From Candidatus Coatesbacteria bacterium (GTDB lineage Bacteria; RBG-13-66-14), in assembly GCA_014728225.1 (NCBI GenBank), contig WJLX01000160.1:1-33086 (forward strand): a stretch of DNA of 33,086 nucleotides. Direction: 5' to 3'. Positions 10,095 through 33,086 of the stretch are shown here, one piece after another; the stretch's first letter is position 1; each line of letters starts with the position of its first letter. A program made the position numbers and the translations under genes. The notes beneath the pieces were generated by a model. The model saw only the letters and a program-made list of their open reading frames with translations, did no database searches and was not told the origin of the DNA.

Positions 10095-10223
10095 GCTGAT
10101 TGAGTGTCACCCTGCGACCGGCGGCAAACGTCGAGTCCCGACTCGGCTTGTCGGCGGGCGATACACTGTGTGCCGGCCGGACGGCGGAGTTCGTCGGGGC
10201 GCCGGCCATGTTTGGAGCGAGCC

Positions 10224-12638
10224 TTGAAAAACAGAGCCTTGCCGAACCAGGTCCTGATAATCGTGGCGCTGGTTCTGTCGACGGCCCCCGCCGGGGCCGG
10301 TTACCTCTTGTCGGCCGATCCGGCGGCCGTCGAGGCGACCGGCGACGCCTCCTGGTTGGGGAGCTACGCCGGTCGGGAACTCTACCGCACCAGCGATCCC
10401 GTCGGGACTCTGGGCGAGCTGCCCGTCGACCTGACCGAGGTCTACCTGGCCGTCGCCCCGGAGCCCGGTCTGAGCCCCGAACGCGGCGTCGTCCACGCCC
10501 GCCTCGATCAGCGGGCCGTGGTCTGCAGCCTGGAGCCCGTCGAGCTGGCCGAGCTGGCGAGGCGGGGCTGGCGCCTGCGGGCCCTGCGGCCGCTGCTGCG
10601 GGCGCCCGCGCAGCCGACGATCCAGCCCCGGCCCGGTGCTTACGACGACTACGTCGACCTGGTGGAGGTCGATACGCTCGACGGTTTCGTCTACGAGTTG
10701 ACCGAGTTCGCAACCCGTTACACCTACAGCGCTCCGGTCAAAGACGCCCGGGACTACCTGGTCGATCGGCTCGAGGGCTGGGGTTGCTCGGTCGAGGTCG
10801 AGAGCTGGCTGGGCGAGCCGGCGGTCAGTCTGGACGTCGACGGCCAGGCCGTCATCCTGGGCACGCGGATGAGCTACGCCTTCTACTCGACCGACGGCGG
10901 GGCGACCTTCTCCACCTACCTGCCCCCCGAGGGCAACCTCGACGCGCCGGTTGACTGCGCGGCTTTCGCTCCCGGAACCTTTCACTACGCCGCCGGGAGC
11001 GCCTACCACCGCAGCGGCGACGGCGGCGCCACCTGGACGGACCTGGATCTGTCCGGCCTCTTCGAGGAGGGCGAGGTCGCACGGACCCTGACCTTCGCCG
11101 ACGAGGAGCGCGGCTACCTGGCGGGTTCCGCGGGCACGGTGCTGACCACCACGGACGGCGGCGCGAGCTGGAGCGCCGTCACGCCCGTCGATGCCTCGAT
11201 TTACGACTCCCGGGCCGCCGCCGACGACCCCGACCTCGTCGTCCTCGTCGGTGCCTACGAGACGATCCTGCGCTCCACGGACGGCGGCGCGAGCTGGTCG
11301 GAAATCGACACCGACGGCTCCGCCACCCTGCAGGGCGTGGACTTCAACGCCGACGGCGTCGGCGTGGCCGTCGGGCTGGGACGGATCCTGCGCACCGACG
11401 ACGGCGGCGCGAGCTGGAGCGCCGTCACGGCCCCCGGCGTCGGTCCCGGGACGGGGCTCAACGACGTCGTCTTCCACGGCACGGGCAAGGTCTCCATCCT
11501 CGGCGATCTGGGCACGCTCTACCACAGCCTGGACGACGGCCTCAACTGGGAGCGCCGCGAGCTGTCTACGGCCGGCTCGCTCAAATGCGCGGCCTACGAC
11601 GGCGGCGCTCTCTGGCTGGCCGGCCAGGACGGCCCCCTGCTCTCCACGGACGGCGGCTCGACCTTCAGCGACCTCCACGGACGCCTGGACGACGGCTGCG
11701 AGGTCGTCTGGCAGAACGTCATCGCCGAGCGCCCCGGGAGCGTCGACCCCGAGTGGCTGGTCTACCTGACCGCCCACTACGACAGCATCAGCACCGATTC
11801 CGATCCCTACGTCCTGGCCCCCGGGGCCAACGACAACGGCAGCGGCGTCGCCGCCCTGCTCGAAGCCGCCCGGGTCACCGCCGGGGTCGAGACCGAGCGC
11901 ACCCTGCGCTGGGGCTTGTTCACCGGCGAGGAGCTGGGCCTGCGCGGCAGCTCCTACCACGTCAACAACGTCGTCCGGGCGGGCGATCCCGTCGCCGGCG
12001 TCCTCAACGTCGATATGGTCGTCTGGAGCGACCCCGCCGACGAGCAAGAGGACCTGGACCTGATCCACGACGAAGCCAGCACCTGGCTGGCCGGGCTGCT
12101 GCAGCGGGCCTGCGACGACTACGGCGCCGGGATGCCCGGCACCCTGTTCATCGACCAGGAGTTCTACCGTTCCGACCACGCCCCCTTCTGGATCGTCGGC
12201 TACCAGGCCCTGCTGGCCATCGAAGACAAGCACGTCCCCTACCCTTACTACCACACCAGCCGGGACGACTACGAGACCATTCAGGGCTGCTTCGGACTGA
12301 CCCGCCAGGTCACCCGGGCCGTCGTCGCCGCGGCGTTGAGCCTGGCCGGCGGCACGGGCGGCTGGCTCGGCGACCTGGAAACGGCCTACGCCTACCCCAA
12401 CCCCTACCGTCCCACCGAGCACGATCACCTGCGCTTCGTCGGCCTGAGGCCGGGCTGCGAGGTGACACTCTACGATCTGAGCGGCGCCGAGGTCTACACG
12501 GCGACGGCGACGGGCACCTGGCTGGACTGGGACGGCGCCAACACCGGCGGCCGCGAGGTCGCCCCCGGCGTCTACCTCTACGTCCTGCGCGCTCCCGCCG
12601 GCGACGTCGTCCGGGGCAAGCTGACCCTGATCCGCTGA
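10224..12638 (+). CDS. Secreted M28-family zinc peptidase with inserted beta-propeller and C-terminal sorting domain
   Basis: An 804-residue protein. The start is TTG at 10224: GGAG lies 6 nt upstream and the next residues (KNRALPNQVLIIVALVLSTA) form a signal peptide. Residues about 143-194 match the helix that opens M28 domains (ARDYLVDRLEGWGCSVEVE). Residues about 205-490 then hold seven Asp-box-like repeats (STDGGATFS, GDGGATWTD, TTDGGASWS and similar) of a BNR/Ycf48-type propeller. The M28 core resumes at about 493 and keeps all expected metal and catalytic residues: His518 (HYDS), Asp537 (NDNGSG), Glu569-Glu570 (GEELG), Asp597 and His677 (YHTSRD). Residues about 722-804 (AYPNPYRPTE to GVYLYVLRAPAG) are a FlgD/type-IX-like sorting domain. 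It is probably a surface or released aminopeptidase. The stop overlaps the start of the next gene. Confidence 0.88.
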   Translation: MKNRALPNQVLIIVALVLSTAPAGAGYLLSADPAAVEATGDASWLGSYAGRELYRTSDPVGTLGELPVDLTEVYLAVAPEPGLSPERGVVHARLDQRAVVCSLEPVELAELARRGWRLRALRPLLRAPAQPTIQPRPGAYDDYVDLVEVDTLDGFVYELTEFATRYTYSAPVKDARDYLVDRLEGWGCSVEVESWLGEPAVSLDVDGQAVILGTRMSYAFYSTDGGATFSTYLPPEGNLDAPVDCAAFAPGTFHYAAGSAYHRSGDGGATWTDLDLSGLFEEGEVARTLTFADEERGYLAGSAGTVLTTTDGGASWSAVTPVDASIYDSRAAADDPDLVVLVGAYETILRSTDGGASWSEIDTDGSATLQGVDFNADGVGVAVGLGRILRTDDGGASWSAVTAPGVGPGTGLNDVVFHGTGKVSILGDLGTLYHSLDDGLNWERRELSTAGSLKCAAYDGGALWLAGQDGPLLSTDGGSTFSDLHGRLDDGCEVVWQNVIAERPGSVDPEWLVYLTAHYDSISTDSDPYVLAPGANDNGSGVAALLEAARVTAGVETERTLRWGLFTGEELGLRGSSYHVNNVVRAGDPVAGVLNVDMVVWSDPADEQEDLDLIHDEASTWLAGLLQRACDDYGAGMPGTLFIDQEFYRSDHAPFWIVGYQALLAIEDKHVPYPYYHTSRDDYETIQGCFGLTRQVTRAVVAAALSLAGGTGGWLGDLETAYAYPNPYRPTEHDHLRFVGLRPGCEVTLYDLSGAEVYTATATGTWLDWDGANTGGREVAPGVYLYVLRAPAGDVVRGKLTLIR

Positions 12639-15541: not shown

Positions 15542-15623
15542 GACGACACGCCGGATGACCACGGCGACGACCGCAAAACCCCCGCCGCAGACCTTGGCAG
15601 ACAAGGAAGCGCCACCCGCCCCC

Positions 15624-15713
15624 GCCCCGGAACTGGCACGGTTTTTGCAACGGCGGGAACCGTAGTCCGTTCGAGCGGTTGCGCTATCGCAAAAACCGTG
15701 CCAGTTCCGGGGC
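15624..15713. repeat. Palindromic element, copy 1 (25-nt arms, 40-nt centre)
   Basis: The left arm 15624-15648 and right arm 15689-15713 are perfect reverse complements over 25 nt. The arm core is GGCACGGTTTTTGC and its complement GCAAAAACCGTGCC. The centre (15649-15688) is 40 nt and has a possible inner stem AACCG/CGGTT (15658-15662 with 15676-15680). Where copies 2 and 3 read AACCGG, this copy reads AACTGG on the left and CCAGTT on the right, so the pair is kept. Confidence 0.95.
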
Positions 15714-15832
15714 CGACGTGCCGGAACCGTTGGAAACGTACAGCGCCGTTCTCCGAAGGTCTGCGGCGGCGGACGGCTGGCTGTTCACTGGATTAGACGA
15801 ACCCGCCCGGACCCCGAGCCGCAGCAGTAGAC

Positions 15833-15846: not shown

Positions 15847-18800
15847 GTGACCAGGCTAGCGCTCATCCTGATACTTCTCCCGGTCGCTGTTTGCCTCGCC
15901 GCGCCGACGAGTCTGTCGGGCTCGCCGCCGACGGAGCTGGACGACGTTCACGGCGGGGATTCGGCCGCCGGAACGGCGGCGTCGACGGCGCCCGTGTCTG
16001 TCTCTCCCCGGACGACCCCAAAAGGCCCCGCCGTACCCGTGGTTCATTTGGTCTCTTGCGATGCCGACGGCGCCGTGCTCAGCGTCGAGTTCCCCGAGGC
16101 CCGTCTCGTGGAACGTTTGGTCGAGGGACGGACTTACACGGAGGTCGTCGTTCCGGGCGCTCCGGCGGTGTCGCTGGAGGGCGAGCCCTTGCTGCCGCTT
16201 TTCAACACCCGGCTTTGGGTGCCGCCGGGGGCCGAGCTGCGGGTATCGGCGACGGGTTCCGACGCCTACGGCCGTACCGTCGAAAACCCCCTGCCCGCCC
16301 CCGAGCTTGAGATCGTCGAAGTCAACGGTCTGGAGCGGATCGAGGAACACTACGCTGCTACGGCGCGCACCGTCGCCGTCGAGTGGCCCCGGGCCGCCCT
16401 GGCGCGGACGGAGATCGTCCGCGGTTGGCGTTTGGCCCATCTCGAGTTGCGCCCCGTGGCTCTCGAGGGCTCCAGTCTGCGTGGTTACCGGCGCCTGCGC
16501 GTCGAGGTCGCCTTCGGAGCGTCGCCGGTGAACACACCGCTGGCCCGGGAGCTGGGCGACCACCCGGATCAGCTCGATCTGGCCGCCTCCCTGGCGCCCA
16601 ATTTCGCCACGGCCCGGGAGCTGGGCTGGCGTCTGCAGAGGACAGCGGAGCCGCCGGCGCCCTTCGGTGTGGACGATCTACCGGGTCAACTGTACAAGGT
16701 CGTCGTCGTTGAAGACGGTCCCTACGTCCTGACCCGGGAGAGCCTCGCCGCCGCCGGTGTGGACGTTGACACCTTGGATCCCCGACGCATGGGACTCTAC
16801 ACCTCTTCGGGCCGGATGCTGGACGCCGACGACCTGTTCGACCGCGACCCCCTCTATCCCGTACCCGTCGAGGTCACCGGCTCCGCGGACGGCAGCCTCG
16901 ACGAGGACGACGGCCTCTATTTCTGGGGGCGGGGCAGCTTCCACTGGGAGGTGCCCGACGCGCCGCCGACGGAATCCGCGACCGCCGCTCCGAGCGCGAC
17001 GGGCGTCTTTGCCGATCAGCCCGGCGTACGCAACCACTACAGCGATTACGGTTACTATTGGTTGGTGTTGGATGAGGACGAGCCGCTGCGCTTCGCCGAC
17101 CTCGACGCCGCCCCGGCCGGCGAGCCCGAGCTGACCCACCTCCAGGGCCGCCTGCATCACGAGGACGACGTCGAAAGCCTCAACCGCAGCAAGTACACCA
17201 GCGAGGGGATGGATTTCTATTGGGATCGTACCGTCCCCGAGCCGACGGGCTGGACCTTCGATATCAACCTGGTCGACTACACCCCGGCCGACACCACCTA
17301 CATGGCCTACGGTGTCCACGGCAACGCCAAGAACTACGACTGCGAGTTCCAGATCTACTACGACGAGGACGTCACTCCCGAACGGCTGGTCGACTCCTTT
17401 CCCTTCGATGACGACGACCGCACCGTCTCACGCTGGTTCACCGTACCGGCGGACTATCCCACCTCGGGCAAAAACGAGCTGACCCTTTACGTCGACGACG
17501 GCGGTGATGATGACCTGAACCAGGTCTCCATCGACTCCCTCGAGGTGCTCTATCCCCGGGGATTGGAAGCCCGCAACGGCGCCTTCGAGGCCTGGGGCGG
17601 TTTCGAGCAGAGCGGTCGCCGCCGGTTGACGGTGACCGGGCTGACCTCGGACGACATCGCCGTCTGGGACCTGACGGCGGGAGAGCGGCTGACGAACTAC
17701 GAACTCGAGGGTCCGAGCGGGTTGCGCGACGTGGTCTTCGCCTGGGAAGTCGAGCCGGACCGTCACCTGATCGTCTTCGATCGTCAGCGGGCCCGCGAGC
17801 CCCTGGACATCTATCCCGACGCCCCAGCCGAATTGGACGAATCCGTGGCCGCCGACTTGATCTATGTCAGCCATCCCGCTCTGGCCGCGGCCCTCGATCC
17901 CCTGGCCGACTACCACCGCAGCCGCGGCCTGCGCGTGGAGGTGGTCAACGTCGACGATATCTACGACGCCTACGCCGGGGGGCGGATGGATCCCGTGGCC
18001 ATTCGCAACTACCTCAAGCACGCCTTCGCCGATCCGCTGGGCGATCCCCTGAGCTACGCCTGTCTGGTGGGCGACGGCAGCTACGATTACCGCGACAGCG
18101 AGGGCATCTACAACGGGCCGTTGTGGCGCGACTTCGGCGAGAATCTGATCCCGCCCCACTACCTCCACTACAGCACCTCCTTCGTTCCCAGCGATAATTT
18201 CTTCGCCGCCCTGAACGCCGGGACCACCGAGCCCCAGATCGCCCTGACCCGCCTGAGCGTCGTCGACGACACCGAGCTCGAGCGGATCGTCGAGCGCTGC
18301 CTGGGGTATCCCGAAGTGCCGGCCGGCCGCTGGCAGGTGCGCAATATCCTCGTCGCCGACAACTACGTCGATTACCAGAATCCAGAAGACGGCCGCGACG
18401 AGACCGGCAACTTCGACCGTTACGCCGAGGAGATCTGCAATTACTACAGCAGCTTCTCCATCGAGCCGACCAAGCTGTACATGACCCAGATGGGGATGGC
18501 CCGCACCGGCGAGGAGTTCTACTGCCAGTACTCCCTGGGCGCCCGCCGCAACGCCGTGCGCGAGCTGATCACCCGGGCCGTCCTCGACGACACCGGCTCC
18601 CTGTTCTACAATTACTTCGGCCACGGCGGCTGGCACACCTGGGCCGACGAGCTGACCCTGACCGAGCGCCCGCCGCTCTATCTCGACCGGGAGGCCTGGG
18701 CCAAACCGCAGCCCGCCGTCCTGGTGCAGTCCTCCTGCTCGGTGGCCGATTTCGATCGCAGCAAGAACACCAACGAATACCCGGAGAGCATCGCCGAGTA

Positions 18801-20163
18801 TCTGATGCGGACCCGGGACGGCCTGTTGGCCGGGGTGGGCTCCACCCGGGTCACCGGCGGCGGAACCTGCCAGTCTTACCACGCGGCCTTCTACAACGCC
18901 GTCTACCACCCCGAGGCCCACCTGGACACACCGCGCCTGGGACTGCTGCACCAGAGCGCCCTGCTGACCTCGGGAAACATCGCCCTGCGCTTCAAGTGGG
19001 CCTTCCTCGGCGATCCGGCGACCGAGCTGCGCCGGCCCGTCGGCGGGATCACTCTCTACGATCCGGGGCTGACCAGCGTCGCCCGGGGCGAGGTCATCGA
19101 GATCACCGGGCGGATCGCCGACGCCTCTCTGGGTGTCGAGACCGTCGAGGTGGTGGCCTACGACCGACCGATGATGCCCTATTCCTTCGTCGAGTCCCCG
19201 GTCCGGCTGGTCCGCCCGGTCACCCGGGCGGTGGGCGCCGTCGACGGCAACGCCTTCACCGTCGAGCTGCCCGTTCCCTGGACCATCGACAACGATCTGA
19301 ACCCGGAACCGATCCCCGACGACGCGCTCTACACCCTGGATATCCATGCCTACGCCCTGGCGGCCGACGGCCGGCGCCTGGTCGTCGATGAACCCTGGAA
19401 CATCGGCGAGACGCCGACGCAACGGGAGTTCTCCCAGGCCACCCCCCGGCTGTACACCGAGATCCTGATCGAGGGCGCCGTCGAGCCTCCCGCGGACAAC
19501 GGCGGACCGCAGATCGACTTCACCCTCAACGGCGGTTCGACGGCTTCCGGCGACCTGGTCTCCGGCGAGTTCGACCTCGAACTGACATTGAGCGATCCTC
19601 ACGGCATCCTGACCGTGCGCGACGACGCCGGAATGCCGGGACCGGCCGGGGACATCGACCGGCCCATCGTCCTGACGGCCGACGCCGAGGGTCACAGCCT
19701 GCAGTTCGACCTGACCGACGATTACGCCACCGCGGCCGATGACTACACCCGGGGCGTGGTCTCCCGGACCATCGAGCTGCCTCCGGGACGCTACACTCTG
19801 AGCGCCCTGGCCTACGATCGCTTCGGTGAGCCGGGAACGGCCTCCTTCGAGCTGCGCGTCGAGGACGAGATGTCCCTGGAGCAGGTCCTGGTGGTTCCCA
19901 ATCCGGCCCCCGGCCCGACGGCCTTCACCTTCGTCACCAGCCGGCGGCCCGACCGCGCCCGGATCCGTATTTACACCCCGGCGGGTCGTCTGGTGCGCAC
20001 CATCGACGACATCGTCCCCGTCGCCGGCTTCAACGTCATCGAATGGGACGGCGACGACGACGGCGGTCGTCCCCTGGCCAACGGCGTCTACCTTTACCAA
20101 CTCGAAGTCGGGCTCGACGAAACGGTCTGCGAGACCTACGAGAAGTTCATCATGCTGCGCTAG
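15847..20163 (+). CDS. Gingipain-like C25 cysteine peptidase, PorU-like
   Basis: A 1438-residue protein from a GTG with GGAGGT 8 nt upstream; residues 1 to about 19 are a signal peptide (TRLALILILLPVAVCLAAP). Residues about 65-230 resemble the C25 propeptide (GEPLLPLFNTRLWVPPGAEL). A beta-rich linker follows. Residues about 668-1066 are the C25 peptidase domain, with YVSHPALAAAL and YACLVGDGSYDYRD, catalytic His926 in NYFGHGGW, catalytic Cys964 in VQSSCSVADFD, and the closing GDPATELR. Residues about 1340-1438 (VVPNPAPGPTAF to ANGVYLYQLEV) are a FlgD-like/type-IX sorting-type domain. In Bacteroidota, PorU is the C25 sortase that removes such domains from cargo and works with PorV. Two PorV-like genes follow directly. 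It could instead be a secreted cargo protease; the neighbours favour PorU. Confidence 0.88.
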   Translation: MTRLALILILLPVAVCLAAPTSLSGSPPTELDDVHGGDSAAGTAASTAPVSVSPRTTPKGPAVPVVHLVSCDADGAVLSVEFPEARLVERLVEGRTYTEVVVPGAPAVSLEGEPLLPLFNTRLWVPPGAELRVSATGSDAYGRTVENPLPAPELEIVEVNGLERIEEHYAATARTVAVEWPRAALARTEIVRGWRLAHLELRPVALEGSSLRGYRRLRVEVAFGASPVNTPLARELGDHPDQLDLAASLAPNFATARELGWRLQRTAEPPAPFGVDDLPGQLYKVVVVEDGPYVLTRESLAAAGVDVDTLDPRRMGLYTSSGRMLDADDLFDRDPLYPVPVEVTGSADGSLDEDDGLYFWGRGSFHWEVPDAPPTESATAAPSATGVFADQPGVRNHYSDYGYYWLVLDEDEPLRFADLDAAPAGEPELTHLQGRLHHEDDVESLNRSKYTSEGMDFYWDRTVPEPTGWTFDINLVDYTPADTTYMAYGVHGNAKNYDCEFQIYYDEDVTPERLVDSFPFDDDDRTVSRWFTVPADYPTSGKNELTLYVDDGGDDDLNQVSIDSLEVLYPRGLEARNGAFEAWGGFEQSGRRRLTVTGLTSDDIAVWDLTAGERLTNYELEGPSGLRDVVFAWEVEPDRHLIVFDRQRAREPLDIYPDAPAELDESVAADLIYVSHPALAAALDPLADYHRSRGLRVEVVNVDDIYDAYAGGRMDPVAIRNYLKHAFADPLGDPLSYACLVGDGSYDYRDSEGIYNGPLWRDFGENLIPPHYLHYSTSFVPSDNFFAALNAGTTEPQIALTRLSVVDDTELERIVERCLGYPEVPAGRWQVRNILVADNYVDYQNPEDGRDETGNFDRYAEEICNYYSSFSIEPTKLYMTQMGMARTGEEFYCQYSLGARRNAVRELITRAVLDDTGSLFYNYFGHGGWHTWADELTLTERPPLYLDREAWAKPQPAVLVQSSCSVADFDRSKNTNEYPESIAEYLMRTRDGLLAGVGSTRVTGGGTCQSYHAAFYNAVYHPEAHLDTPRLGLLHQSALLTSGNIALRFKWAFLGDPATELRRPVGGITLYDPGLTSVARGEVIEITGRIADASLGVETVEVVAYDRPMMPYSFVESPVRLVRPVTRAVGAVDGNAFTVELPVPWTIDNDLNPEPIPDDALYTLDIHAYALAADGRRLVVDEPWNIGETPTQREFSQATPRLYTEILIEGAVEPPADNGGPQIDFTLNGGSTASGDLVSGEFDLELTLSDPHGILTVRDDAGMPGPAGDIDRPIVLTADAEGHSLQFDLTDDYATAADDYTRGVVSRTIELPPGRYTLSALAYDRFGEPGTASFELRVEDEMSLEQVLVVPNPAPGPTAFTFVTSRRPDRARIRIYTPAGRLVRTIDDIVPVAGFNVIEWDGDDDGGRPLANGVYLYQLEVGLDETVCETYEKFIMLR

Positions 20164-28707: not shown

Positions 28708-28818
28708 AACCCAGTTAAGCCGACTCAGGCAAACTCGGCGGCTGAACGTCCACCAGCACCGGCCGCCGGAGTGACTCCCCTGGACACGGGCCCGATTTTT
28801 TACATACGTCGATTAAGC

Positions 28819-28910
28819 GCCGCCGGAACCGGCACGGTTTTTGCACCGTCAGCGACGCTTGATCGTCCGGCAAGCGTCGCTTCCGCAAAAACCGTGCCGG
28901 TTCCGGCGGC
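28819..28910. repeat. Palindromic element, copy 2 (26-nt arms, 40-nt centre)
   Basis: Left arm 28819-28844 and right arm 28885-28910 are perfect 26-nt reverse complements with the same core, GGCACGGTTTTTGC, as copy 1. The centre (28845-28884) is again exactly 40 nt and contains its own perfect 10-bp stem AGCGACGCTT/AAGCGTCGCT (28851-28860 with 28872-28881). It sits between a lipoprotein gene and a GTG-started membrane protein gene. A TTTTTT run at 28795-28800 just upstream could end transcription from the left. Confidence 0.95.
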
Positions 28911-28992
28911 AGCGGCGCGCAGGCGCCGGTATTCTCGCCGGCGGCCGTCCCGGGTCGCTGTCCGACTGCTTGGTTGATCGAAAGGGGTCAGT

Positions 28993-32223: not shown

Positions 32224-32972
32224 GCCGCCGCGCCGATCTCGACCGACGGCGACGCTTCTTCGCCCGGGCCCCCGGAGCCGCCCGCCTGGGCGGGCTGGCC
32301 CTCGGCGAAGCCGCCGGGCGCCCCCATGCCTTGACCGAACTGCGCCGCCGCTGGCGGAAGGCCCTCGAACCCCTGGACGGTCGCCGGGTGCTCGAACTCG
32401 GTTGCGCCGCCGGCGGTGAACTGGCCTACCTCACCGGACGCGGCGCCCGAAGCGTCGGCCTCGAACTGACCGCGGCCCGCCTCGAATCGACCTCCGCCGT
32501 CGCCCCCGCGGCCGTCCTCGTCGTCGGCGACGCCGAACGACTGCCCTTCGCCGCCGCGACCTTCGACCGCGTCGTCGGTAACTCCGTCCTCCTGCACCTC
32601 GACCGCCGTCGGGCCTTCGCCGAGCTGGAGCGCGTCCTGGCTCCCGGAGGACGGGCCGTCTTCCTCGAACCCCTCGACGCCCACCCCCTGCTGCGCCTCT
32701 ACCGGAGCTTACTCGCCCGGCGCCGAGGATTGGTCGACTACCCGAGTCCGGCCGAGCTGGCCCGACCGTACCGGCTGGAATTGGTCGAGCTCTCCTGCTG
32801 GTACCTGACGGCGGCCCTGCCCGTGCTCGCCGCGCGGCCGCCCGGCCGCCTGCCCCGCCCCGGGTTGACAAAACTGCTGGGCCGTCTCGACGAGCGGCTG
32901 TTCCGCCGCGCCGGTTGGCGCCGCCGGGCCTGGCTGGCCCTGGCCGTCTACCGCAAACCCGGCGACCTTTGA
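32220..32972 (+). CDS. Class I SAM-dependent methyltransferase, paralogue B
   Basis: A 250-residue protein with ATG overlapping the previous stop (ATGA). Motifs are VLELGCAAGGELAYL (about residue 58), SVGLELTAARL, VVGDAERLPFAAATFDRVVGNSVLLHL and RVLAPGGRAVFLEPLD. It matches paralogue A along its whole length (HPLLRLYRSLLARRRGLVDY against HPLLRLYRRLAMRRGEVVSY; LDERLFRRAGWRRRAWLALA near the end). Two copies side by side suggest two successive or alternative methylations, or a heterodimer. It is the last gene before the third palindromic element, about 40 nt away. Confidence 0.9.
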   Translation: MSRRADLDRRRRFFARAPGAARLGGLALGEAAGRPHALTELRRRWRKALEPLDGRRVLELGCAAGGELAYLTGRGARSVGLELTAARLESTSAVAPAAVLVVGDAERLPFAAATFDRVVGNSVLLHLDRRRAFAELERVLAPGGRAVFLEPLDAHPLLRLYRSLLARRRGLVDYPSPAELARPYRLELVELSCWYLTAALPVLAARPPGRLPRPGLTKLLGRLDERLFRRAGWRRRAWLALAVYRKPGDL

Positions 32973-33011
32973 CAACCGCCGCCGCAACCAACCTCGGCGC
33001 CGGGTCTACAC

Positions 33012-33086
33012 CCGGCCGGAACCGGCACGGTTTTTGCGGAGGCGAAACCGCCCCGCCGTTCGCAGCGTCGCCGAGATGCAAAAACC
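33012..33086. repeat. Palindromic element, copy 3 (cut by the window end)
   Basis: The left arm is visible to 33037 (GGCCGGAACC then GGCACGGTTTTTGC). After exactly 40 nt (33038-33077) the right arm starts as GCAAAAACC at 33078 and is cut at 33086. The centre has a possible inner stem GGCGA/TCGCC (33041-33045 with 33068-33072). The outer left boundary is uncertain because the right arm is incomplete. Confidence 0.9.

Follow-up and report, generated by a model that had tools for sequence, protein, structure and literature searches.

Nested palindromic intergenic elements with paired sigma-54-like arms in a Candidatus Coatesbacteria genome

We describe a family of nested palindromes that lies between the genes of a Candidatus Coatesbacteria genome and that is represented three times in the window, a stretch of 33,086 bases comprising the whole of contig C160. 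The element is a two-fold-symmetric unit of about 195 bp, present in about 300 copies per genome, that probably spread as a non-autonomous mobile element. Selection or homogenisation at the DNA level would now hold its copies intact, and its inner arms, judged by their sequence, may be bound by sigma-54 RNA polymerase. Taken as one chain, from a new element family of mobile origin through DNA-level upkeep to sigma-54-bound arms, this is a tentative proposal, which we consider plausible rather than probable.

The three palindromes of about 90 nt (15624-15713, 28819-28910 and 33012-33086) are all present as an earlier note on this DNA had described them (Table 1). An inverted-repeat search of the window returned the inner arm pairs of copies 1 and 2 as its top two repeats. 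Those of copy 1 (15624-15655 and 15682-15713) match over 32 nt at 91%, with the outermost 25 nt perfect, and those of copy 2 (28819-28844 and 28885-28910) over 26 nt at 100%. Copy 3 is truncated inside its right arm by the end of the contig, and its probable left outer arm overlaps the TGA stop codon (32970-32972) of the upstream methyltransferase gene. A size of about 90 nt is correct for the central palindrome but not for the whole element, because an outer inverted repeat lies about 30-45 nt beyond the arms. Elsewhere in the window, a lone match to the outer-arm motif (GAGCGAGCCTTGAAAAACAGAG) occurs at 10215-10236 with no palindrome near it. The window also encodes an M28 peptidase (10239-12638), which weakly matches the type IX secretion domain CHU_C, and a C25 peptidase (16048-20163) that carries a FlgD-like Ig domain; the pair suggests type IX-like secretion.

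Table 1. Positions of the element's parts in the window and of examples of a second palindrome family in the genome sample
Feature	Position	Strand	Basis
Copy 1, left outer arm CCCCCGCCGCAGACCTTGGCAGA	15579-15601	+	Inverted repeat, 87% complementary to 15750-15772; outer-layer test
Copy 1, left inner arm, sigma-54-like box CTGGCACGGTTTTTGC reading rightwards	15624-15648 (core 15635-15648)	+	Inverted repeat
Copy 1, centre, 40 nt, minority loop type	15649-15688		Sequence, loop comparison
Copy 1, right inner arm, sigma-54-like box reading leftwards	15689-15713 (core 15689-15702)	-	Inverted repeat
Copy 1, right outer arm	15750-15772	-	Inverted repeat, outer-layer test
Copy 2, left outer arm (weak)	28760-28779	+	80% complementary to 28928-28947; below outer-layer listing score of 13
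Copy 2, left inner arm	28819-28844 (core 28831-28844)	+	Inverted repeat
Copy 2, right inner arm	28885-28910 (core 28885-28898)	-	Inverted repeat
Copy 2, right outer arm (weak)	28928-28947	-	Inverted repeat
Copy 3, probable left outer arm CGGCGACCTTTGACAACCGCC	32960-32980	+	By-eye match to outer consensus; partner beyond contig end
Copy 3, left inner arm	33012-33037 (core 33024-33037)	+	Sequence
Copy 3, centre, main loop type (GGAGGC...GCCGAGAT)	33038-33077		Loop consensus
Copy 3, right inner arm, start only, cut by contig end	33078-33086	-	Sequence
Family B, examples	L101:157-216; L101:12250-12309; L107:2196-2255 (C4:22196); L116:2774-2830		G000 sample

The genome of the window (G000) is a draft of 2.96 Mb in 181 contigs, 96.8% complete; a protein of the window shares 59% identity with Candidatus Coatesbacteria RBG_13_66_14, its best named relative. 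The earlier note had proposed a genome search for the arm pair, with a total of only three copies as the outcome that would speak against a family. The pattern GGCACGGTTTTTGC-N20-50-GCAAAAACCGTGCC, counted with both 14-nt cores exact, has 235 matches in G000, far above that number, and the reversed-pattern control has 0. A motif-free search of 1.18 Mb for hairpins spanning 70-150 nt and scoring 18 or more for pairing found 121, every one of which belongs to the family, and this scales up to about 300 copies in the genome. The base-by-base reading covered the same 1.18 of 2.96 Mb, and counts of variants rest on this 40% of the genome. Arms lie within 130 nt of 16 of the 106 contig ends examined, which indicates that the repeats are a frequent site of breaks in the assembly. 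Cores that are solitary or decayed are absent, the exceptions being contig ends, one indel and chance hits. Many of the analyses were chosen after the data had been seen, and their strength lies in effect sizes and in a second genome (G013, a draft from another genus of the same taxonomic family), not in single p-values. That the palindromes form a real family is virtually certain. G000 also carries a second and rarer palindrome family (family B; Table 1), with imperfect arms GGCGCGGTTSTTGC and GCAASAACCGTGAC around a 29-33-nt centre that contains a perfect hairpin of a sequence different from copy to copy; its 15 copies in 0.77 Mb have no outer layer, and none lies in a divergent gap.

Read from one edge, the unit consists of an outer arm resembling GRGACCKTTGAAAAACAGCC, a spacer of about 32 or 42 bp, the inner arm CCGGAACYGGCACGGTTTTTGC and a centre of 40-42 nt, followed by the mirror image. 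In the main loop type of oriented copies, CCGGAACYGGCACGGTTTTTGC is followed by GGAGGC, an inner stem and GCCGAGAT, and then by the mirror arm. The inner arms pair over about 26 bp, the last three to four pairs varying by site yet still pairing, and pairing reaches the background level by the twelfth base outside the core. The outer layer was assessed by comparing the left and right 110-nt flanks: an outer inverted repeat (score of at least 11) is present in 98% of 82 copies versus 19% of shuffled pairings, with mean scores of 18.9 and 9.1, and the same comparison found nothing for direct repeats. The outer arms have the loose consensus GRGACCKTTGAAAAACAGCC, with a more variable KTT step between conserved flanks, and are 80% identical within a copy versus 56% between copies. 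The loops average 70% identity, the inner arms are invariant and the spacers between outer and inner arms have no similarity among 78 copies. Spacer length is nonetheless constrained: in both G000 and G013, the gaps between the outer motif and the core fall into clusters of 31-34 and 41-44 bp, separated by about one helical turn. The periodicity statistic is approximate, since it is anchored on a fitted motif and gives similar scores for neighbouring periods. The unit measures 195 bp (IQR 189-201) and can reach right up to a neighbouring gene's stop codon; the outer arm overlaps the upstream stop at 3 of 84 gene ends in the sample, as it does at copy 3. Matches to the outer motif adjoin cores in 79 of 85 cases. 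A larger transposon bearing this motif was rejected, because the motif occurs almost only beside cores. We are highly confident that the unit of about 195 bp is the element.

One reading of this anatomy is DNA inversion, in which a recombinase would act at the outer arms, requiring them to match within a copy, and would flip the centre. Such a system would account for outer arms that are alike within copies and variable between them, for the KTT step flanked by conserved sequence, and for a loop polarity in G000 that is unrelated to gap polarity. However, G000 and G013 have just two tyrosine recombinases (Phage_integrase) each, as do most relatives, and flipping a near-symmetric centre has no evident use, and we consider inversion very unlikely. 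Recombination of the Xer/IntI type, including integron attC sites, was rejected, as there is no extra IntI-kind integrase.

The arms are conserved as DNA. Pairs next to the core vary as complete Watson-Crick changes (for example, CG in 35 and TA in 20), and G-T is absent from them. Within the core G-T is rare, and the few cases belong to the separate family B; of 11 core variants, 8 are altered alike in both arms. There is no excess of transitions among outer-arm mismatches. An RNA stem would tolerate G-U pairs; the lack of wobble indicates that what is preserved is the identity of the arms as inverted repeats of DNA. The element has no Rfam match, and an RNA stem or RNA-processing hairpin was rejected on both grounds. 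The arms are maintained by selection on DNA, by template-switch correction or by both, which are inseparable here.

The gene context likewise differs from that of terminators, the other RNA-level role that the earlier note had suggested. Gene borders come from a purpose-written codon-model caller that uses no external annotation, and context statistics cover 0.77 Mb (26%) of G000. By these calls, all copies are intergenic. Intrinsic termination, or an RNA 3'-end hairpin, would agree with the window, where all copies do lie just downstream of plus-strand genes as had been noted, and with the position of units nearer to stops than to starts (median 52.5 versus 106.5 nt). Genome-wide, however, the first pattern does not hold: elements follow gap types, occupying 58 of 192 tandem, 15 of 55 convergent and 9 of 70 divergent gaps of at least 120 nt, whereas terminator-like hairpins in the same data number 65 in convergent and 4 in divergent gaps. 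This skew indicates gene calls of sufficient quality and shows that the nested elements are not terminators. In addition, a terminator precedes the element in 13 of the 13 tandem gaps that contain both, and the arms lack G-U wobble. The mapping relative to gene ends thus upholds a closeness to stops but not a restriction to them, and the intrinsic terminator, from which confinement to gene 3' ends and absence from divergent gaps were expected, was rejected as extremely unlikely. The residual tandem gap is below 60 nt in 9 of 56 gaps with an element versus 194 of 395 without, and copies thus avoid short, operon-like gaps.

We compared 14 genomes of the phylum. G013 contains 147 palindromes with arms GGCKTTGGCACRTTTCTTGC, and both the outer layer and the unconserved spacers are as in G000. 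The other five genomes of the taxonomic family have 0-2 palindromes each by the pattern used, and the same pattern found none in seven phylum genomes outside it. There are also no elements in RBG_13_66_14 or in 21 named genomes of other groups, and plasmid records have no match to the element. Among 48 adjacent gene pairs conserved between the G000 and G013 samples, nine have an element in at least one genome and one has it in both, so that a conserved position between genera was rejected on these nine informative pairs. The empty partner gaps can be short (14 versus 377 nt after rpoN, 61 versus 370, 42 versus 333 and 67 versus 250). Mostly empty orthologous gaps indicate that copies were gained or lost by lineage, and a mobile origin of the element is likely. 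Domains of Y1 (PF01797), DDE_Tnp_1 (PF01609) and rve (PF00665) transposases number 0 in both G000 and G013. Target-site duplications are not in excess among 78 copies, two tests being negative save for one copy, in agreement with their reported absence at copies 1 and 2. The exception follows the sigma-54 gene rpoN (L110:10950-11360, G000 contig C26); it alone has a clear direct repeat, of 15 bp (CGCCGCGCCGTCCGC), immediately flanking its outer arms, and the corresponding gap in G013 is 14 nt. Separately, a G013 contig (C19; L181:1-289) begins with a perfect inverted repeat of 123 nt that has an element at its centre; this probably reflects a fold-back artefact of assembly.

Among known systems, REP, REPIN and BIME sequences with their RAYT (Y1) transposases also occur as palindromes between genes, in hundreds per genome and with sequences specific to the lineage, and are defined by a GT(A/G)G head at the palindrome end (PMC2817692). 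Unlike them, our elements have no such head in the inner or outer consensus, no Y1 transposase in the genome and no solitary units, and consist of 26-bp arms around a 40-nt centre plus an outer layer; membership in REP/REPIN-RAYT fails on the missing head and the missing Y1. Like the MITEs Correia and RUP, the elements are small, have inverted ends and are inserted between genes by lineage; the 195-bp unit carries terminal inverted repeats, and orthologous sites are empty (one of nine shared). They differ from MITEs in having no general target duplication, outer ends that agree with each other inside one copy but not with a sequence common to the family, and an extra inner palindrome; no cognate transposase was found among PF01797, PF01609 and PF00665. 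A REP/BIME- or MITE-like nature, as first suggested, is thus right in kind (high copy number, intergenic position, lineage-specific gain and loss), but the elements fail as REPs and qualify only in part as MITEs. No known transposon or Rfam family, either of which was to count against the repeat family, was found. ERIC and the Rickettsia palindromic elements are likewise palindromic dispersed repeats of about 100-200 bp without an evident transposase. Their sequences are different, the present elements have two nested layers with unconserved spacers, and the Rickettsia elements insert in genes, which the nested elements do not. The inverted DNA uptake sequences of Neisseria and Haemophilus also place a conserved short word in intergenic inverted pairs; here, in contrast, single copies of the word, or copies within genes, hardly ever occur, and the pairs are not terminators.

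The elements may be relict MITE- or REPIN-like selfish repeats whose arms served as sites for a transposase now lost or unrecognised, whose arms stay identical within a copy through template-switch correction of quasi-palindromes, and whose likeness to sigma-54 sites is coincidental. High copy number, intergenic position, lineage-specific arms and presence, and the avoidance of operon-like gaps all fit such a relict, as does the better match of the inner arms, with their shorter loop, than of the outer arms. However, there are no decayed copies though the spacers have fully diverged, no transposases of the three superfamilies, and no general target duplication, and chance would have to explain why an exact sigma-54 match persists in two genera despite spacer changes. 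We regard this relict as a doubtful but serious possibility.

We now turn to the sigma-54 match, which, with the outer inverted repeat, goes beyond the earlier note. The arm core TGGCACR-N-TT-N-TTGC fits the -24/-12 consensus TGGCACR-N4-TTGC in G000 and G013, whose arms otherwise differ, and the fit is kept in both despite spacer changes. Both boxes of a copy face inward, and G000 arms have T or C before GGCAC. Most core variants found in both arms sit at positions that we take to be tolerated by sigma-54. G000 has rpoN with an intact RpoN box (ARRTVAKYR), and most of its solitary sites of this form are found upstream of genes and on the correct strand; compared with these, the arm reads TTGCGG and lacks the A/T expected after TTGC. 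The published consensus is tGGcacg/tTGCt, and the arms resemble sigma-54 promoters in fitting it and in the presence of the sigma factor in the host (PMC4641369). Unlike such promoters, they form perfect inward-facing pairs in hundreds of copies, with no preference for gene starts: placement follows gap types, and divergent gaps are depleted. We lean, by a little, towards the arms being bound by sigma-54 in the cell, and of the roles first suggested we favor a protein-binding palindrome, with sigma-54 as the candidate ligand. Our literature search on sigma-54 palindromic repeats or Coatesbacteria repeats found nothing relevant. In viral contigs (L209:3563-3778, L212:10918-11400 and L213:8597-9062), sigma-54-like boxes are clustered, many as inward-facing pairs; L212, a tailed phage by its capsid, portal and terminase hits, has 11 in about 480 bp. 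These clusters are possibly an independent case of paired sigma-54 boxes.

If the boxes acted as mobile bidirectional promoters, transcription would start in the centre and run outward through the opposite arm into flanking genes under the control of an activator. Consensus boxes on both strands, the presence of rpoN and activators, and an outer motif at an activator-like distance with helical phasing all agree with this, but divergent gaps are depleted while convergent gaps are commonly occupied, and the TTGCGG arm lacks the expected A/T. Enhancer-binding proteins are no more numerous in G000 than in element-poor relatives, and an activator expansion was rejected as support for sigma-54 because the numbers are equal. 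We judge bidirectional promoters improbable.

Since most copies are badly placed to serve genes as promoters, sigma-54 binding, if it occurs, would act in place or for the element's own maintenance. The polymerase may form a symmetric closed-complex platform between transcription units, or serve element maintenance, without driving neighbouring genes. Lineage-specific presence, high copy number, an outer layer in both genomes and invariant arms count for this explanation; the lack of the tested transposases, shared spacers, general target duplication and promoter placement counts against it. No two copies share spacers, and consequently there is no sign of recent whole-unit copying. We rank a DNA-level binding platform or element-maintenance role above a gene promoter, with the relict selfish repeat close behind the platform. 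A further step, in which several hundred symmetric sigma-54 polymerase sites between transcription units, spread over the whole genome, would hold closed complexes unable to initiate unaided, as insulators, roadblocks or chromosome organisers independently of promoter function, is unlikely.

Short dispersed palindromes are common in bacteria, but here the repeat has two layers, the outer of which matches only within each copy. To our knowledge, no described family combines a two-layer repeat, paired sigma-54-like arms and hundreds of intact copies without the tested transposases. If sigma-54 binds the arms, the elements would amount to an unusually large collection of sigma-54 sites that are not promoters; if it does not, they would offer a clear example of inverted repeats that remain perfect and that spread with no evident enzyme, in which to study how both come about.
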